42,835 bases of DNA from Bdellovibrio sp. (GTDB lineage: Bacteria; Bdellovibrionota; Bdellovibrionia; Bdellovibrionales; Bdellovibrionaceae). The notes under the pieces are model-generated. The model had not been told where the DNA came from. It worked only from the letters and a program-made list of their open reading frames with translations, and did no database searches. Every line of letters starts with the position of its first letter. The stretch's first letter is position 1. Shown here piece by piece: positions 17,744-41,014 of this stretch. The DNA lies in contig DYOP01000013.1 in assembly GCA_020720425.1 (NCBI GenBank), positions 1-42,835 on the forward strand, given 5' to 3'. Position numbers and translations under genes: made by a program.

Positions 17744-17882
17744 CTAGTACTGCGACCATTTAATTTTTTTCGGTTTTGGTCCTGCTTTTCTGCGGCTTAA
17801 ATCAAAAGGACCTTCTCGCGACGAAAGGCCTGTGTAGGGTTTAAATACAAAACCGGCAAAAATTAAATGGTCGTAGCACTAG
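17744..17882 (+). mobile_element. MITE-like palindromic element, copy 1
   Basis: A 139-bp element with terminal inverted repeats of about 35 bp (17744-17778 against 17848-17882). The shared core GACCATTTAATTTTT is followed by a GGTTTTG-type end, and both termini are CTAG. The centre contains GGTCC...GGACC and GGACCTTCTCGC...AAAGGCC, able to form inner stems. Two relatives occur at 36955 and 40876. There is no ORF inside. It lies between convergent genes. Confidence 0.82.
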
Positions 17883-24505: not shown

Positions 24506-25300
24506 ATGCTGGCACAACTTTTTAAATCATCGTTATTGGTTCTTTTACTTTTCATTTCAACAACAGGTATAGCTCATACTCAAGCAAGCGAAACTCAGCT
24601 AAAACCCATGATAGTTGGCGGGGGAGAGGCTCAGCCAGGAGAGTTTCCATTTATAGTTTCTTTATATAAAGGTTACCATTTTTGCGGAGGATCGTTAATT
24701 GATAAAAATTGGGTTTTAACTGCGGCCCATTGTGTGACAGGTAGTAAATCATTTGAAGTACGTATTGGTTTATTTGATCAAAAAAATTTAAATCAAGTTG
24801 AAGTTCGAAAAGTAAAAAATGTAATGATTCACCCCCAGTATAATAAACAAGTTGATCATGATTATGATTTTGCGCTGGTCGAATTAGATGCCTCTTCAAA
24901 TACTCAGCCAATTGAGCTTAACCGTGTTGATTTTAACTCTCAGTCAAGAACGGGTGATGTTATGTTTACTGTTGCGGGTTGGGGCACCCTAAAAGAGGGA
25001 AGTTACCAATCTCCTAAAATATTACAAAAAGTTGAGGTTCCATTTATTGATTTAGACACTTGTGAAAAGTCTTACCCAAATCAAATGAGTGAACGCATGC
25101 TTTGTGCGGGTTACCAAGATGGTGGTAAAGATTCGTGCCAAGGAGATTCGGGTGGACCTTTAGTGACTCAAGATGCCTCAGGAAAAGCCATATTGGCTGG
25201 TGTCGTAAGTTGGGGTAAGGGCTGTGCTAGGGCCAAGTACTACGGGGTTTATGGCCACGTATCGACTGTATACGATTGGATTAAAGACCAAATTAACTAA
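24506..25300 (+). CDS. Secreted trypsin-like serine protease (S1A)
   Basis: Exported chymotrypsin-family protease, 264 aa. A signal peptide (about 1-27, ending IAHTQA) is followed by a short propeptide and the activation site before IVGG. The triad is complete: His75 (TAAHC), Asp121 (DFAL) and Ser215 (GDSGGP). Asp209 in DSCQGDSGGP occupies the S1-pocket position that gives cleavage after Arg/Lys. Cysteines for disulfides are present (FCGG/AAHC, GDSGG region, GKGCA). AAGGAG precedes the ATG. Activation would need another protease, since Met rather than Arg/Lys precedes IVGG (PMIVGG). Such animal-like trypsins are frequent in predatory bacteria; use against prey is inferred. Confidence 0.94.
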   Translation: MLAQLFKSSLLVLLLFISTTGIAHTQASETQLKPMIVGGGEAQPGEFPFIVSLYKGYHFCGGSLIDKNWVLTAAHCVTGSKSFEVRIGLFDQKNLNQVEVRKVKNVMIHPQYNKQVDHDYDFALVELDASSNTQPIELNRVDFNSQSRTGDVMFTVAGWGTLKEGSYQSPKILQKVEVPFIDLDTCEKSYPNQMSERMLCAGYQDGGKDSCQGDSGGPLVTQDASGKAILAGVVSWGKGCARAKYYGVYGHVSTVYDWIKDQIN

Positions 25301-25326
25301 GTTGTATTTTCACCTGACTTGCTAAA

Positions 25327-25366
25327 GTAAAATAGACCACCTCAAACAGCGCGTGGTCTATTTTAT
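25327..25366 (+). terminator. Terminator after trypsin gene
   Basis: A 14-bp perfect stem (25327-25340 with 25353-25366; TAAAATAGACCAC arm) around CTCAAACAGCGC, ending TTTTATTTG. It lies 26 bp after the stop. The preceding TCACCTGACT...CTAAA also occurs at 27361, next to the tRNA-Val terminator. Confidence 0.7.
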
Positions 25367-25381
25367 TTGATAAGTGCCCTC

Positions 25382-25440
25382 GCCCCCCTTCGGGGCTAGC
25401 GCTTAAAAAGGCCGTAGTGGCCTTTTTGTCGAACACAGGT
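25382..25440. repeat. 59-bp direct repeat, left copy flanking Fic cassette
   Basis: Matches 27300-27358 in the same orientation with only three differences by my alignment (56/59). It contains two hairpins, CCCCTTCGGGG and AAAAAGGCCGTAGTGGCCTTTTT, then GTCGAACACAGGT. The pair brackets the Fic gene, as element ends or recombination scars would. A shorter relative lies at 1256-1336. Confidence 0.82.
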
Positions 25441-25523
25441 AGAGCCATTTCTGCACAGTTTATTAGCATCACTATTTTTTTACTAACTTACTGATAGTAT
25501 GGGTTATAGTTTTATTTTTACAC

Positions 25524-25602
25524 TAAAATCTAGTAATATAACGCATTAAAATCTATATAATTTTTGCATTAAAATCTAGAAAATGTGGTACAATAAAGTC
25601 TA
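25524..25602 (+). promoter_or_regulatory. Four regularly spaced TAAAATCTA operator-like repeats
   Basis: TAAAATCTA at 25524, 25547 and 25570, and the variant TAAAGTCTA at 25594, give spacings of 23, 23 and 24 bp. Two copies share a wider GCATTAAAATCTA. The last copy ends one base before the AAGGA ribosome site of the Fic gene. AbiEi-type antitoxins are known to repress their own promoter by binding repeats, and the gene here begins with an AbiEi-like domain, so autoregulation is likely (inference). Confidence 0.7.
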
Positions 25603-25614
25603 TAAGGAATCGAT

Positions 25615-27204
25615 ATGGGAAATACAAATATGACTCCGAAATCTAAGAAATTGGGACATCAGATCCTAGGGGAAACATTAGCTAAAGCTAACCTTTCTTC
25701 AAATAAGGACGTCATTCGATCTGCTGATATCGACAGAACCACAAGAGAGCGTCTTGTTCGAGCTGGATATCTCGAAGAAGTAGTAAGAGGCTGGTATTTA
25801 CTAACCAACCCTGCAGGAAAAGGCACCAGCACTCTTTGGTTCAGTAATTATTGGGAGTTTGCGAAACAATATTTGGAGGATCGCTTTGGAGCTGATGGAT
25901 ATTGTTTATCTCCAGAATCGTCCCTCAATCTTTTTTCCGGCCAGGGAGTCATCTCTAATCAAATCGTAATTTTAACAAAGAAGACTTCGAATCAAGTTTT
26001 AAATCTTCCGCATGATACTTCGATTCTGTTTTATACCGAAAATAAAAATTTCCCTAAAAATCTATTTAAATATGAAGGTCTAAATACCTTTCCTTTAGCA
26101 GAAGCAATCTGCCGAGCATCACCTAATTTTTTTATCGAGCAATCCTTAAATGCAGAGATCTGCTTAAAATTAATAGGGTCAGCCGCAGAACTATCTCGTG
26201 TTTTATTATCTCAGAGTTTAGTTTCAGCCGCTGCACGTATTTCAGGAGCCTATCAACAGCTTGGAGATATCAAACGAGCCCAACAAATTATCGATGATAT
26301 GGCGGCAGCAGGTCGCCAAATTTCTCCGGTTAATCCGTTTGAGCAAAATATATTATGCCTTAAGGGAATTGAGCGATTAAAATCCCCGTATGCTGGGAGA
26401 ATTGAAGCTCTTTGGCATAAAATGAGAGATGATGTTTTGGCAAACTTCCCTATCAATCCTGATTTTGATGATAAGACCTTGTTAACCATTATGGATAGAC
26501 TATATCGAGAAGATACTTATCACTCACTCTCTATTGAGGGTTACCAGTTAACTGAGGATTTGATTGAGCGAATTAAAAACGGTCAATGGAGCCCAGAGAA
26601 TATTCAAACAGATAGTGAACAAAAAAATGCGCTAGCAGCTAAAGGATACTTAAATGCATTTAAAGCTGTTGGTGAAAGTGCCAAAAAAGTAATAGTAAAT
26701 AAATCCGATCCAGCCGAGGTCTTTTCAGATGATCTCCAGAATTGGTATAGGCAACTATTTACTCCTCTTGCTCAGGCCCAATTATTAAGAACAGAGGATT
26801 TAGCAGGATATCGAAACAACCAAGTCTATATTAATGGATCAAGACACGTTCCCCCACCTGTAGGTGCAGTACATGATTGCATGGAAACACTTGAGAAGCT
26901 TTTGAAAAACGAATCTTCTGCAGCTGTAAAAGCTATTTTGGGACATTTTATATTTGTATATGTTCACCCCTATACGGATGGAAATGGGCGAATTGCGCGG
27001 TTTCTTATGAATCTTATGTTTATCACTGGCGGCTACAATTGGACTGTCATTAGAGCCTCCGAAAGAATGAAGTATATAATCGCCCTCGAAGAAGCATCGA
27101 CGAAGGGTAACATTATTCCATTTGTAAATTTTTTGTTCTCAGAAATGGAGCATTGGGCCGGTACAGTAAAAGCCATAAGAGAATCACTTGAGATGCCAAC
27201 TTAA
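25615..27204 (+). CDS. AbiEi-like winged helix fused to class II Fic domain
   Basis: A 529-aa cytoplasmic protein predicted to attach AMP (or a related nucleotide group) to a target protein. The N-terminal part (about 15-200) resembles the AbiEi antitoxin winged-helix region: VIRSADIDRTTRERLVRAGYLEEVVRGWYLL. A helical middle follows. The Fic domain (about 295-515) has the full motif HPYTDGNGRIAR with catalytic His451. The self-inhibitory helix precedes it (SLSIEG, Ser304-Gly309, Glu308), which marks class II and explains why no separate antitoxin gene is needed. The start has AAGGA 6 nt upstream. It is alone between two 59-bp direct repeats beside tRNA-Val, consistent with a recently acquired, possibly phage-defence, cassette. 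The cellular target is unknown. Confidence 0.88.
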   Translation: MGNTNMTPKSKKLGHQILGETLAKANLSSNKDVIRSADIDRTTRERLVRAGYLEEVVRGWYLLTNPAGKGTSTLWFSNYWEFAKQYLEDRFGADGYCLSPESSLNLFSGQGVISNQIVILTKKTSNQVLNLPHDTSILFYTENKNFPKNLFKYEGLNTFPLAEAICRASPNFFIEQSLNAEICLKLIGSAAELSRVLLSQSLVSAAARISGAYQQLGDIKRAQQIIDDMAAAGRQISPVNPFEQNILCLKGIERLKSPYAGRIEALWHKMRDDVLANFPINPDFDDKTLLTIMDRLYREDTYHSLSIEGYQLTEDLIERIKNGQWSPENIQTDSEQKNALAAKGYLNAFKAVGESAKKVIVNKSDPAEVFSDDLQNWYRQLFTPLAQAQLLRTEDLAGYRNNQVYINGSRHVPPPVGAVHDCMETLEKLLKNESSAAVKAILGHFIFVYVHPYTDGNGRIARFLMNLMFITGGYNWTVIRASERMKYIIALEEASTKGNIIPFVNFLFSEMEHWAGTVKAIRESLEMPT

Positions 27205-27299
27205 ATACCGATGTACTAAATATAGTTAATTTAGAGACATGTGGAAGGTGCGATTTGATTTGATACTTTAGGATGTAGATGTTCCGTCTCACATATTCA

Positions 27300-27358
27300 G
27301 CCCCCCTTCGGGGCTAGGGCTCAAAAAGGTCGTAGTGGCCTTTTTGTCGAACACAGGT
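27300..27358. repeat. 59-bp direct repeat, right copy flanking Fic cassette
   Basis: Right-hand partner of 25382-25440, with the same two hairpins and GTCGAACACAGGT end. It lies 54 bp beyond the 3' end of tRNA-Val. On the tRNA strand the second hairpin reads as a GC stem ending in T residues, so it may also serve as a back-up terminator. The stretch 27205-27299 between the Fic stop and this repeat shows nothing else. Confidence 0.82.
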
Positions 27359-27377
27359 TCTCACCTGACTCCCTAAA

Positions 27378-27404
27378 ATAAAAAAAACCACCGTAGGGTG
27401 GTTT
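27378..27404 (-). terminator. Terminator of tRNA-Val
   Basis: On the minus strand AAACCACC-CTAC-GGTGGTTT is followed by a long T-run, 8 nt after the CCA end of tRNA-Val. A textbook intrinsic terminator. Confidence 0.85.
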
Positions 27405-27412
27405 GTTTTATT

Positions 27413-27488
27413 TGGTAGGGAGTACAGGATTCGAACCTGCGACGTCCACCTTGTAAGGGTGGCGCTCTACCAACTGAGCTAACTCCCT
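27413..27488 (-). tRNA. tRNA-Val (anticodon TAC)
   Basis: On the minus strand the acceptor AGGGAGT pairs with ACTCCCT, the D arm is AGCTCAGTTGGTAGAGC, and the anticodon arm is CCACC-CTTACAA-GGTGG with anticodon TAC. The T arm is GCAGGTTCGAATCCTGT, with discriminator A and encoded CCA, 76 nt. It marks the right border of the Fic cassette. The 259 bp to its right (27489-27747) contain no feature I can support. Confidence 0.93.
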
Positions 27489-27747: not shown

Positions 27748-28407
27748 TTACTTGCGATGGCTTAGCTGTTTTCCGTTTTCGCATTTATACTGAGTTGAAT
27801 CAGAAATATGAATAATTTGATAACTCATTTTTTTATCCCATTGTTTTTGAGGGAATAAAGATAAAATCATAACAGGTTTTTTACGAGAATCAGAATCATC
27901 TGATGAGTCCTGGTTATTGCCCTGATTAGGCGGGGGTTGGTTGGGGTTTGATGTATTTTTTTCGAGATCAGATGTTTTAAATCCGCGCAAAGTTAAATCA
28001 AAAAATTGATTATCAGGGGTTACCATTGAGGCTATAAAAACATGATTGTTTTCGTAGCCAATACCTGAAGAAAGAACTTCACAAGTTTCAGAGTTAAATT
28101 GTGTTACCTTTAAAAAGCGTTCCTTGTGATTATTAATAGTTTTAGTTGAAACGGTAAACAAAAAGTAACTATCACAAGCTACGCTTGTAGGAGCCCAAAC
28201 TCCTTTGATTCCATTTGTATTCATAGTTACTTCGAGTCCCCATGGTATGGGCCAAGGGGTAAAGTCTCCACCATCTCCTCCATTTACAGCTTTTGAGTCA
28301 ATTGGACAGCTATTTGAGTTTGATACGTCTGAAAAAGCATACGCATTAGAAAGTGCACTTAAAAGAAATGTAAATAAAAAAGTGGCAACCGTAAAATAAA
28401 ATTTCAT
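27748..28407 (-). CDS. Small exported protein of unknown function
   Basis: A 219-aa protein with a clear signal peptide (FTVATFLFTFLLSALSNAYA). I do not recognise the mature part. It has several cysteines (CPIDSK, VACDSY, ETCEV, YKCENG), suggesting disulfides, a beta-rich first half, and a Pro/Asn/Gln/Asp/Ser-rich linker (about 155-175) before a short C-terminal segment. Its ATG overlaps the stop of the upstream TPR/winged-helix regulator by one base (TAATG), with a G-rich ribosome site (AGGGGGGG), so the two are translationally coupled. The coupling hints that the regulator and the exported protein serve one response. Confidence 0.75.
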   Translation of the reverse strand: MKFYFTVATFLFTFLLSALSNAYAFSDVSNSNSCPIDSKAVNGGDGGDFTPWPIPWGLEVTMNTNGIKGVWAPTSVACDSYFLFTVSTKTINNHKERFLKVTQFNSETCEVLSSGIGYENNHVFIASMVTPDNQFFDLTLRGFKTSDLEKNTSNPNQPPPNQGNNQDSSDDSDSRKKPVMILSLFPQKQWDKKMSYQIIHISDSTQYKCENGKQLSHRK

Positions 28408-29639
28408 TATTCCCCCCCTAGGTCGATATCATTAGATTGTACTAAAACTTTGGCTGAACGATTCATAAAATAACCATTTTTTGCACGAAATATATATTTA
28501 GGCTTATCAAAATCGGGTTCAATCATTTTTCGTAAACGCTTGATGGTAACATAAACTTTATTGTCATGAATTAGAGGATCATAATTTTGTTGCCAGATAT
28601 GTTCGACAAGATATTCCTTAGAAAAAGTCGTGCCAGGGTTGGTAATGAAAAGTTTTAGAAGGTCTAAAAGTACAAACTGGTTTTTAAAATCAATGCGGCC
28701 TAGTTTTAATTCGGTTACTGAATTAAGATTTGAATTAAAAATTAGATCATACTGATTGTGTGTGTCTAGATTAAGCTGGGCTAATTCAAGTTCGATTTGC
28801 TTGTATAATCGGGGCATATTTATAGGGTCTGTCATTTTTGAAGCGATTCTTAATTGAACTATGGCTAAATCTGTTTGACCTAGCTTGCGATGCGCTTTTG
28901 CTAGTAGTCCCATAAGTTGAATAGGAAAAATAAATGACTTGTAATTTTTTAACATATCATATGCTTCCCATAATACTTCAATGGCTTCGTTATATTTTTT
29001 TTGATCAATTAAAATTAAACCATTTAGTAGTATGGACGAGGCTTGTAGTTCGAAATGCGGTAACACTTCAAAAAATACTTTTAAATTATAAATTTCTCGC
29101 AAAGCTTCCTGGTAGCGTCCTTGCATGCGGTAAACAATAGCTAAAGCGCTAATGGCGTAGCAAGTGTCGGTTTTGTTTTGGCTATCAAGTGCTAGTGCTA
29201 AACTTTTTTGGGCGTATTCAAGAGCAAGGGGGATTTGGTTTCTGTATCCAGCGCATAAGCATAAAATATAAAAAGATTGAGAAGAGAGTTGAAGGCCGTT
29301 ATTGAGTGCCAGATCCTGGATTTCCTCTTTGGCATTAGAAATCTTATCAGGCTGATTGGTCTCAGCGTAAAGATAAAGTAACCTATTTTGAATTTTAAAG
29401 TAGAGTGTAAAATCTTTACTTTCGAGGGCAAGCCATTTGGCTGACTCAAAAGAGATAAGAGCTTTTTGAAACTCGCCTAATTTGTACTGAAGATCAGCCT
29501 TTTCAAAAGCAAGATCGACAGATCTCTCTATTTTAGGAGAGGAAGAGGAAGAGGAAGGGGGGGCTAAAGTTGGTAAATCAAAATTTGTATTCATAAAATG
29601 GGGTTTAACCGAAGGACAAGCTAAAAAATCTGTACACAT
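28407..29639 (-). CDS. TPR protein with OmpR-type winged-helix DNA-binding domain
   Basis: A 410-aa predicted regulator. The N-terminal three quarters (about 25-290) are helical repeats of the tetratricopeptide type (LGEFQKALISFESAKWLAL, QGRYQEALREIYNLK, KKYNEAIEVLWEAYDML, LGQTDLAIVQLRIA). The C-terminus (about 305-395) is a Trans_reg_C winged helix: FSKEYLVEHIWQQNYDP, DNKVYVTIKRLRKMIEPD and YIFRAKNGYFM. There is no receiver domain, so control is probably by ligand or protein binding to the repeats, as in SARP-like regulators but with reversed domain order. The ATG at 29639 has no good ribosome site; the ATG at 29594 (MNTNFDLP) is an alternative. It is coupled to the exported protein gene downstream. 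Confidence 0.83.
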   Translation of the reverse strand: MCTDFLACPSVKPHFMNTNFDLPTLAPPSSSSSSPKIERSVDLAFEKADLQYKLGEFQKALISFESAKWLALESKDFTLYFKIQNRLLYLYAETNQPDKISNAKEEIQDLALNNGLQLSSQSFYILCLCAGYRNQIPLALEYAQKSLALALDSQNKTDTCYAISALAIVYRMQGRYQEALREIYNLKVFFEVLPHFELQASSILLNGLILIDQKKYNEAIEVLWEAYDMLKNYKSFIFPIQLMGLLAKAHRKLGQTDLAIVQLRIASKMTDPINMPRLYKQIELELAQLNLDTHNQYDLIFNSNLNSVTELKLGRIDFKNQFVLLDLLKLFITNPGTTFSKEYLVEHIWQQNYDPLIHDNKVYVTIKRLRKMIEPDFDKPKYIFRAKNGYFMNRSAKVLVQSNDIDLGGE

Positions 29640-29766
29640 CTGTCAACAGGGTTTTTCAGAAATCAGATATTTTTGAGGGATATCTTAATATGAAGTTGGT
29701 TTAATATCATTAAATCAAGTAGGGAAGAAGTCTATTGTAAAAAAGAAGTATAATCTGCCTAAGCAG

Positions 29767-29794
29767 GCTAAGGGCGCTATGCGCGCCCTTTAGC
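29767..29794 (-). terminator. Hairpin after lon
   Basis: GCTAAGGGCGC and GCGCCCTTTAGC fold into a GC-rich stem 30 bp after the lon stop. A second AT-rich palindrome (AAAAGCTTAAAAATTAAGCTTTT, given as arms AAAAGCTTAA and TTAAGCTTTT) overlaps the stop itself. The T-run is weak. The rest of the gap to 29639 shows nothing. Confidence 0.55.
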
Positions 29795-29822
29795 TTGGTT
29801 TAAAAGCTTAAAAATTAAGCTT

Positions 29823-32261
29823 TTAGTGAGTTTGGTGAGTGTGGCCCGTGTAGTGGGCCTTAATATGGCTGTCTTTTTGGTTTTTAGCCTTAAATAACTC
29901 TTTAGGGTTTTTAATTTCTAAAGCATTCACTAAAACTTGGTCTACATGATCAACCATAATAATTTTAAGATCTTTCATAACCTCTTTAGGAATGTCTTTA
30001 AGGTCTTTTTCATTTTCTTTGGGGACAATAATTGTGCGGATGCCGCCGCGATGAGCGGCTAGGATTTTTTCTTTAAGTCCTCCGATAGGTAACACTTTGC
30101 CTCTTAGGCTGACTTCGCCTGTCATGGCGACGGTTCTTTTAACGGGAATTTTAAGAATAGAAGAGACAATTGAAGTGGTTAAAGCAATGCCAGCCGATGG
30201 CCCATCTTTGGGAACGGCCCCCTCGGGAAGGTGAATGTGAATATCATTATTATAAAAATATTCTTTTTCGAGACCAAATAAGGGCCCTCTTGATCTGACA
30301 TAGCTCATGGCTGCCGAGCAAGACTCTTTCATGACATCCCCCAATTGTCCGGTAACAGTAAATTTACCTTTGCCGGGGACTACGGTGGCTTCGACAGATA
30401 ACAGATCTCCCCCTACCTCAGTCCAAGCCATTCCGTTGGTTAGGCCAATGTCATTGGTTGATTCGATTTTTCCGAATTTATATTTTTCGGCGCCGAGAAG
30501 CTCGACTAATTTTTTATGGTTCACGTTGTATGTTTTTTTGGTAACAGTCTTTTTTTTGTTAAGCTGATTTAAAGCTTCGTCTTTAACAATTTCATGGGCG
30601 AGCTTGCGGCAAACGGTTGCAATTTGTCTTTCAAGGCTGCGTACTCCCGCTTCGCGAGTGTAGTAACGAATTATGCTTCTTAAAGCATCGTCTTGTAGGG
30701 TAACACCGCGATCAATAAGTCCATGATTTTTAAGTTGTTTGGGAATTAAATATTGTTTGGCAATATTAAATTTTTCATTTTCGGTATAGCCTTCAATGGT
30801 AATAATTTCCATTCGATCAAGTAAAGGGCGAGGAATCGTGTGAAGAGAGTTTGCCGTAGCAACAAACATGACTTTTGATAGGTCATAATCAAGTTCTAAA
30901 TAATGATCTTGAAAAGAATTGTTTTGTTCGGGGTCTAAAACTTCGAGCATGGCGCTGCTGGGGTCACCCCTAAAATCTGAAGCCATTTTATCAATTTCAT
31001 CAAGCAAGATAACAGGGTTACCCTTATCCATTTTTCGAAGAGATTGAATAATTTTTCCGGGCATGGCGCCAACATATGTTTTGCGGTGCCCCCTAATTTC
31101 GGCTTCATCGCGAACGCCGCCTAAGGATACTCGGGCAAAGGGCTTATTAAGAGCCCGGGCAATCGAGCGAGCCAAGGATGTTTTTCCGACACCGGGAGGG
31201 CCAGCTAGACATAAAATAGGTCCTTTTAAGTCGGGGGCAAGTGAGAGAACAGAAAGATACTCAACCACTCGTTCTTTAACTTTATCAAGTCCCCAATGGT
31301 CTTCGTTTAAAACTTGATTGGCAAAGGTAATATCGTGTCTTTCTTTTGCGTAATCGTTCCAAGGAAGCGAAAGAACCCAATCAATATAATTTCTAACAAC
31401 GGTGGCTTCGGCTGACATGGGTGACATCATCTTAAGTTTTTTAATTTCTTTTTTAACTTTATCACGGGCCTCTTGAGGAAGAAGTTTTTTTTGAAGCCTT
31501 TCTTCGAGCTCGATCATTTCTTGTTGAAATTCATCTTTTTCGCCCAATTCTTTTTGAATGGCTTGCATTTGTTCGTTAAGATAATATTCTTTTTGAGATC
31601 GTTCCATTTGTTTTTTAACTCGGTTACGAATCTTTTTTTCGACCTCTAAAATTTCAATTTCGCTGCTCATTAGGCTTAAAATATGTTCAAGCCTTTTTGC
31701 AGGATCAAATATTTCTAAGATTTTTTGCTTATCCTCGAGCTTTAAATTGAGCTGAGCTGCGATAATATCAGCCAACTCAGATGGGGTTTCGATAGAAGAA
31801 ATACGCATTAAAATTTCAGGAGGAATGCGTTTATTAAGTTTTACATAAGACTCGAAAGTGTTTTTTATTGATCGAATCAGAGCGCTTGATTCAACACTGG
31901 CATCATTGTCGTCCGGGATAATTTCATGTTCAGCAATAAAAAAAGGATCAACTTGTTTGACTGATTTAATGCGAGTTCTTTGTTTTCCCTCAACTAAGAC
32001 TTTAACCGTGCCATCGGGTAACCTTAAAAGTTGAATAATGTTACCAATAGTCGCTATTTCATAAATCTCATCTGGATTGGGATTATTTGTCTTGGCATCT
32101 TTTTGTGCAGATAAAATAATTTCGATTTGTTGAGACATGGCATGTTCGAGGGCTGCGATACTTTTTTCGCGGCCAACAAACAGTGGCATCATCATGTGCG
32201 GAAAAATAATAAGATCTCTGAGTGGGAGTAATGGTAGCTCAGTACGAATATTTGTGGACAT
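29823..32261 (-). CDS. lon: ATP-dependent protease Lon
   Basis: Cytoplasmic AAA+ protease degrading misfolded and regulatory proteins, 812 aa. The N-terminal substrate domain begins [23 protein letters not shown]. The AAA+ module has Walker [10 protein letters not shown] with Lys360 and Walker [11 protein letters not shown]. The protease domain has the Ser-Lys dyad Ser689 ([10 protein letters not shown]) and Lys732 (GGLKEK). The C-terminal tail is histidine-rich ([14 protein letters not shown]), which is not part of the usual Lon core. AAAGGAGGGG precedes the ATG. It follows clpX by 90 bp on the same strand, the common clpP-clpX-lon order. Confidence 0.98.
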
Positions 32262-36954: not shown

Positions 36955-37092
36955 CTAGTACTGTGACCATTTAATTTTTGCCGGTTTTGGTCCTGCTTTT
37001 CTGCGGCTTAAATCGACTGGACCTTTTCGCGAAGAAAGGCCGTGTAAAGTTTAAATAAAAAACCAGCAAAAATTAAATGGTCGTAGTGCTAG
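36955..37092 (+). mobile_element. MITE-like palindromic element, copy 2
   Basis: A 138-bp copy in the same orientation as the one at 17744. Both termini are CTAG, the inverted ends share GACCATTTAATTTTTGC, and the centre carries TCCTGCTTTTCTGCGGCTTAA, then GGACC and GAAAGGCC. It lies between two minus-strand genes. Confidence 0.82.
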
Positions 37093-37148
37093 CCCCCTAT
37101 AAAAGATTTAAAAATAAAGTTTTCAAATATTAAAGGCTAGAAGGTAAA

Positions 37149-40875: not shown

Positions 40876-41014
40876 GTAGTACTACGACCATTTAATTTTT
40901 GCTAGTTTTGTATTTAAACTATACACGGGCCTTTCGTTGCGAGAAGGTCCAGTCGATTAAAGCCGCAGAAAAGCAGGACCAAAACCGGCAAAAATTAAAT
41001 GGTCGCAGTACTAG
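40876..41014 (-). mobile_element. MITE-like palindromic element, copy 3 (inverted)
   Basis: A 139-bp copy in the opposite orientation to the other two: the GGTCCTGCTTTTCTGCGGC arm is on the right here. The left end is GTAG rather than CTAG. It lies in the divergent htpG / outer-membrane protein promoter region, so it could influence transcription. Confidence 0.82.

Follow-up and report, generated by a model that had tools for sequence, protein, structure and literature searches.

The locus raises the question of whether a gene that stands alone between two near-identical direct repeats, beside a tRNA gene, is a portable unit combining DNA binding, self-inhibition and toxicity in a single polypeptide. 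The window analyzed here, a stretch of 42,835 bp, is a complete contig of a 2.6-Mb draft genome. Within it, an open reading frame on the forward strand (25615..27204) encodes an AbiEi-like/Fic fusion protein of 529 aa, defined by the ORF itself, the Pfam family PF02661, homologues of the same architecture and structure models. As the initial annotation had described, two 59-bp direct repeats differing at three positions flank this gene (25382-25440 and 27300-27358, both on the forward strand; 56/59 identical), it is the sole credible gene between them, and a tRNA-Val gene (TAC; 27413..27488, minus strand) adjoins the right copy. No other credible ORF was found in 25300-27413, and no recombinase gene is present between the repeats.

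The C-terminal half (residues 290-515) contains an intact class II Fic domain together with an SLSIEG helix. Pfam places the Fic domain at residues 372-468 (26728..27018, forward strand; PF02661, E 1.3e-13), and its catalytic motif, HPYTDGNGRIAR at residues 451-462 (26965..27000, forward strand), is of the HxFx(D/E)GNGRxxR type with a tyrosine at the phenylalanine position. N-terminal to the Fic core, the inhibitory helix SLSIEG occupies residues 304-309 (26524..26541, forward strand) and follows the pattern (S/T)xxxE(G/N) as S304-LSI-E308-G309. Across 20 homologues, nine residues of the helix and the motif do not vary (S304, E308, H451, D455, G456, N457, G458, R459 and R462); the intact motif and the helix, with its glutamate at position 308, are exactly as first proposed. 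In the whole-protein model (pLDDT 81), FICD superposes with a Z of ~23 over 234 residues, within residues 272-525, and among solved Fic structures FICD/HYPE and C. elegans Fic-1 come closest. Judged by anatomy, as given by its motifs and predicted fold, the Fic half belongs to the self-inhibited Fic enzymes of class II (classes after PMC3667792). In this class, AMPylation is released when the inhibitory glutamate is changed to glycine. Further Fic genes of other architecture are found elsewhere in the same genome (G000:C47:33025-33342 and G000:C49:30281-30541).

The N-terminal half was characterized from its predicted structure, in which residues 1-230 comprise a winged helix followed by a nucleotidyltransferase (NTase)-like domain; residues 1-245, modelled alone, reached a pLDDT of 84. 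The winged helix, on whose presence the initial proposal had been staked, is found in the AlphaFold2 model at about residues 12-64 (25648..25806, forward strand) with the element order H-H-E-wing-E and a pLDDT of 75-84 for residues 31-60, and many winged helices of the PDB superpose on it at 1.7-2.0 Å over about 50 residues. It is followed at about residues 73-231 (25831..26307, forward strand) by a domain that Foldseek and VIA relate to the AbiEi C-terminal or NTase fold. With residues 1-245 as query, the top Foldseek match in the PDB was AbiEi from Streptococcus agalactiae (6y8q, E 4e-4) and the second was Rv2827c (1zel, E 2.5e-3), while VIA alignment of the N-terminal model gave a Z of 8.3 for MenT1 and of 8.0 for 6y8q over 129 residues; Z values of this size are middling, so that the resemblance to AbiEi is drawn from the Foldseek ranking and the order of the structural elements. 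A sequence profile provides a hint in the same region (PADLOC AbiEi, E 0.0065, residues 32-71), and Pfam returned no AbiEi match in the protein or in any of the 20 homologues. By eye, the middle domain appears to lack the catalytic G(S/T)...DxD motif of NTases. The claimed union of an AbiEi-like region and a self-inhibited Fic domain in one polypeptide is therefore borne out by fold for the former and by motif and fold for the latter. Since there is no AbiEii partner, the AbiEi-like half may not serve as an antitoxin at all.

The strongest signal at the locus, one that the initial annotation does not mention, is an array of direct repeats 5' of the fic gene, where four CANTAAARTCTA units follow one another at steps of 23, 23 and 24 bp (25521-25603). 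These candidate operator units, all on the forward strand, are CACTAAAATCTAG (25521..25533), CATTAAAATCTAT (25544..25556) and CATTAAAATCTAG (25567..25579), which form the 23-bp periodic series, and CAATAAAGTCTAT (25591..25603), placed at the 24-bp step; the p value of the periodicity is the lowest that the shuffle tests could return. Periods were sought across the family in the 220 bp upstream of each gene, allowing any period of 15-35 bp and comparing with dinucleotide shuffles, in a sample of 28 members taken from chromosomes, plasmids and viral contigs of several phyla. A significant array was detected in 25/28 homologues, with a period of 23 bp (n=11) or 24 bp (n=14). Such a period was present in only 1/30 other Fic genes, in 0/29 AbiEi_4 genes, downstream of one of the same 28 genes, and at 4/202 neighbouring ORFs, two of which share the fic promoter region by position. 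The array is conserved and specific to this family, and its repeat sequence varies between lineages while the 23-24 bp period remains constant: the unit is CATTAAAACCT in Pseudoalteromonas (six copies), TAAAAGCTAAT in Saccharobesus, CGTAACTRAGA in Vibrio breoganii, ACTTGCAGGCG in Acetobacter, and of the TTAGTG type in rhizobia (five to seven copies). Placed as a label on the protein tree, the period requires 3 changes, compared with 8.7 for shuffled labels, and 0/500 shuffles were as low. Repeats that vary by lineage, together with a period that clusters on the protein tree, are as expected for an operator that co-evolves with its binding protein.

The exact spaced repeat pair occurs twice in the genome, both times at the fic promoter. 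A regulon-wide motif was considered and rejected, the other genomic matches carrying one or two mismatches and being about as numerous as those of a reversed control pattern. When the repeat unit was compared with TAAAAGCAACA, the half-site published for the abiE operator, the similarity in nearly all cases did not rise above shuffled controls, and the consensus sigma-70 promoter gave fewer matches than shuffles. The simplest reading is that the array serves the gene as a private operator that co-evolves with the protein, whose own winged helix binds it. This binding is proposed from the pattern of conservation, and the repeat letters differ greatly between lineages, so that the array might instead be bound by a regulator of the host or be a by-product of AT-rich DNA. 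We regard that explanation as very improbable: the array accompanies the gene across phyla and replicons without a change of period, control genes have practically none, and a factor of the host would not be carried along with the gene.

The family to which the gene belongs is widely but patchily distributed. Full-length homologues were found in 74 plasmid records (at least 80% cover), with about 35-42% identity among the matches listed, and in 8/291 genomes of the phylum, its own genome included, with identity of up to 59%. Others lie on chromosomes of Algoriphagus and Spirosoma and on five viral contigs, while no full-length homologue was detected among annotated phage records or in the searched relatives from the same bacterial family. 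The plasmid copies stand as single genes, and the description of the gene as a portable single gene agrees with its single-gene context on plasmids, chromosomes and viral contigs. In a slot of conjugative plasmids bounded by traH on one side and by HTH and traM on the other, S. meliloti has the fic gene (L087:2309-4729), and Agrobacterium sp. MA01 (L231:2516-4364) has a PIN-like/DUF433 pair in its place; a megablast search with the flanks of the plasmid homologues returned no clean single-gene empty site. These distributions, read from sequence comparison, support the view that the fic gene is horizontally mobile.

The spread of the family also bears on whether the protein is a toxin or defence factor at all. 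It could be a stress or housekeeping regulator, in which the Fic domain tunes a host protein by AMPylation or de-AMPylation and DNA binding serves autoregulation only, with neither toxic nor anti-phage activity. Such a role would suit the resemblance to FICD/HYPE and C. elegans Fic-1, FICD being an AMPylase and de-AMPylase rather than a toxin, as well as the invariance of the inhibitory helix and the fact that many Fic proteins are non-toxic. It sits poorly with the patchy occurrence in the phylum and the lack of a full-length homologue among the family relatives searched; moreover, carriage on plasmids and viral contigs, and a plasmid slot shared with a PIN/DUF433 pair, are more in line with a selfish or defensive gene. 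We therefore consider a purely regulatory role unlikely, and favour a gene of the selfish or defensive kind.

At the present locus, the surroundings record how the gene may have arrived. The tRNA-Val gene marks the edge of a neighbourhood with the order lon, TPR/winged-helix regulator, orf219 and tRNA-Val (27748-32261 plus the tRNA), and the grouping of lon or the TPR/winged-helix gene with orf219 and the tRNA is conserved in nearly all loci examined in the bacterial family. Its 3' side is variable among the same loci and looks like an insertion hotspot. No match to the fic protein was found at any tRNA-Val locus examined in the family, in keeping with the expectation that the gene is not fixed here; as it is missing both at this site and from the family relatives searched, the gene was probably acquired in the present lineage. 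The terminator block at the 3' side of the tRNA has a diverged copy at 25307..25372, likewise not mentioned in the initial annotation, which aligns with 27358-27420 at a score of 61; about 1000 random pairs scored 42 at most. With T for the terminator block and R for the 59-bp repeat, the order of elements is T'-R-fic-R-T-tRNA. In one relative (G158, locus L049), a hairpin is flanked by two terminator blocks and there is no gene, an arrangement that, by weak analogy, may resemble the state before insertion. The classical form of a tRNA-integrated genomic island does not apply, as no integrase lies between the repeats, a gap of 55 bp separates the right repeat from the 3' end of the tRNA gene and the repeat contains no tRNA sequence, and only the diverged terminator block is duplicated. 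In several relatives (L045, L043, L048, L050 and L057), tRNA-Val is followed first by a leader of the ATTGGTAGAAA type and then by a small ORF that is similar among them, perhaps recurrent cargo of the hotspot.

The 59-bp repeats themselves occur in two copies in the whole 2.6-Mb assembly, the second one matching at E 6.8e-21, and have no copy in 65 other genomes of the family, and are therefore neither a chance similarity nor a dispersed element; their occurrence as a dispersed genomic repeat is excluded by the count of two. A different repeat, a palindromic MITE-like element of 139 bp with 35-bp terminal inverted repeats, lies elsewhere in the window (17744-17882, 36955-37093 and 40877-41014) and is present in roughly a dozen genomic copies that are 88-92% identical. 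Each 59-bp copy contains two hairpins, one of the GCCCC type and one formed by AAAAAGGCC and GGCCTTTTT, and on account of these the preceding trypsin gene may be closed by the left copy and the fic gene by the right one. Such a function as terminators is plausible from the hairpins; the repeats are not among the terminators listed by the terminator scan. An integron attC site was considered as well and discarded, as neither repeat region contains core sites (GTTRRRY/RYYYAAC).

Whether the repeats are a working part of a cassette was assessed at the other loci of the fic family. Flanking direct repeats scoring at least 40 bits occur at 4/27 fic loci and are missing from the other 23, and none of 702 mismatched flank pairs reached that score, a control that is generous since repeats are likelier within one genome than between genomes. 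Besides the present locus, they were detected at G139 (34 bp, 94%), L151 (75 bp, 92%) and L029 (196 bp, 70%), and the repeats of the four loci have no sequence in common, by which a recombination site shared across the family is ruled out. The left copy at G139 lies 37 bp past the stop codon of the preceding gene. On the phage-like contig L151 (2830-4650), the fic homologue follows a terminase large-subunit gene (phrog_38), and the repeat consists of the last 75 bp of that gene, repeated behind fic with differences that are almost only synonymous; the second copy thus probably derives from the coding gene of a diverged relative. Recombination beside the 3' end of a gene, leaving a copy behind, accounts for these cases.

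The near-identity of the two repeats on either side of a single gene in a tRNA hotspot, and the recurrence of flanking repeats at three further loci but at no mismatched pair, could nevertheless mean that they are functional recombination sites, and that a site-specific recombinase acting in trans mobilizes the interval as a non-autonomous cassette. A recombinase acting on the repeats is possible in principle and unsupported here: the repeats of different loci are unrelated, most loci have none, neither a recombinase nor an attC core is present, and the near-exclusively synonymous differences at L151 point to recombination with a diverged relative. We judge this alternative unlikely. The scarcity and unrelatedness of the flanking repeats, and the copied terminase end at L151, give them instead the appearance of insertion scars, and the 59-bp repeats, which had been described as framing a cassette, are most likely the scar of an insertion beside tRNA-Val with no working part in the unit. 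The conserved companion of the gene is the upstream array.

Taken as a horizontally acquired gene with its own operator, the locus is probably a one-gene toxin-antitoxin-like or defence unit based on array-bound self-repression, a self-inhibited Fic domain and growth arrest upon release. The AbiEi-like half, comprising the winged helix and a presumably catalytically silent NTase-fold domain, would bind the array in its own promoter region, and the bound protein would repress the fic gene and so remain scarce. Meanwhile, the SLSIEG helix would hold the Fic active site shut, in the manner of class II self-inhibition. A trigger, possibly gene loss or phage infection, would lift this inhibition, and the released Fic domain would AMPylate a host target and arrest growth, with phage defence as the putative benefit. 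The array could also act as a titration device, in which DNA-bound copies are inactive and a change in array copy number, or stripping of the protein from the DNA, frees the Fic domain; copy number might change through plasmid loss, gene loss or phage DNA replication. We offer this second possibility as speculative and rather doubtful, although, if true, a single gene would monitor how many copies of itself are present and need no labile antitoxin to do so. For the self-repressing unit that we favour, the AbiEi-like half and the portable, conserved repeat operator define a family across several phyla, whose control is directly testable with short DNA probes, and two known toxin-antitoxin or defence modules, AbiE and Fic, are joined in one self-contained gene.

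Among known systems, CccR, SoFic and AbiE come nearest to this arrangement. In the open-access literature (most subscription journals lay outside the search), no account was found of the pairing of AbiEi-like and Fic domains or of the 23-24 bp array; the plasmid genes are annotated as 'Fic family protein' from the Fic domain only, with the N-terminal half and the array unannotated. A true homologue is BT_RS24275 on plasmid p5482 of B. thetaiotaomicron, which shares the architecture at about 40% identity and has the array. AbiEi represses its own promoter by way of inverted repeats and has AbiEii as its partner (PMC3985639); the present protein resembles it in the succession of a winged helix and an NTase-like domain, as reflected in the match to 6y8q, but has a fused Fic domain in place of the AbiEii nucleotidyltransferase partner. 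The AbiE operator is one inverted-repeat pair, whereas that of the fic family would consist of direct repeats at 23-24 bp, and AbiEi_4 genes, unlike the fic family, are without a periodic array. RptR, the repressor of a defence island, binds several successive direct repeats within the promoter of its own gene (PMC12255303) and is thus similar as a defence-associated regulator acting on its own promoter, yet it is a separate regulator protein with 9-bp repeats containing a TAGCTA palindrome and no Fic domain.

Two further parallels come from Fic proteins. CccR of Yersinia pseudotuberculosis represses its own promoter (PMC9755527) and likewise unites a Fic AMPylase and a DNA-binding autorepressor in one polypeptide, autorepression here being suggested by the conserved array. 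Its domain order is opposite, with Fic first and the HTH last, its operator is an inverted repeat (AGATAATCAT-N26-ATGATAATCT) rather than a direct-repeat array, and it is reported as a secreted effector whose DNA-binding part, as described, is not AbiEi-like. SoFic, a toxic, anti-phage class II Fic protein (PMC12249575; also PMC3667792), corresponds to the Fic half and its N-terminal inhibitory helix: the PADLOC SoFic model matches residues 293-515 (E 6e-26). The match stops at model position 264 of 361, and the SoFic-type C-terminal domain is absent, the protein ending at residue 529, about 15 residues past the match; the locus also lacks a downstream small AS1-type gene, and has the AbiEi-like N-terminal half and the array instead. 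The fic family would, as we infer, resemble CccR in its control and possibly SoFic in its effect, while belonging to neither of them nor to AbiE.
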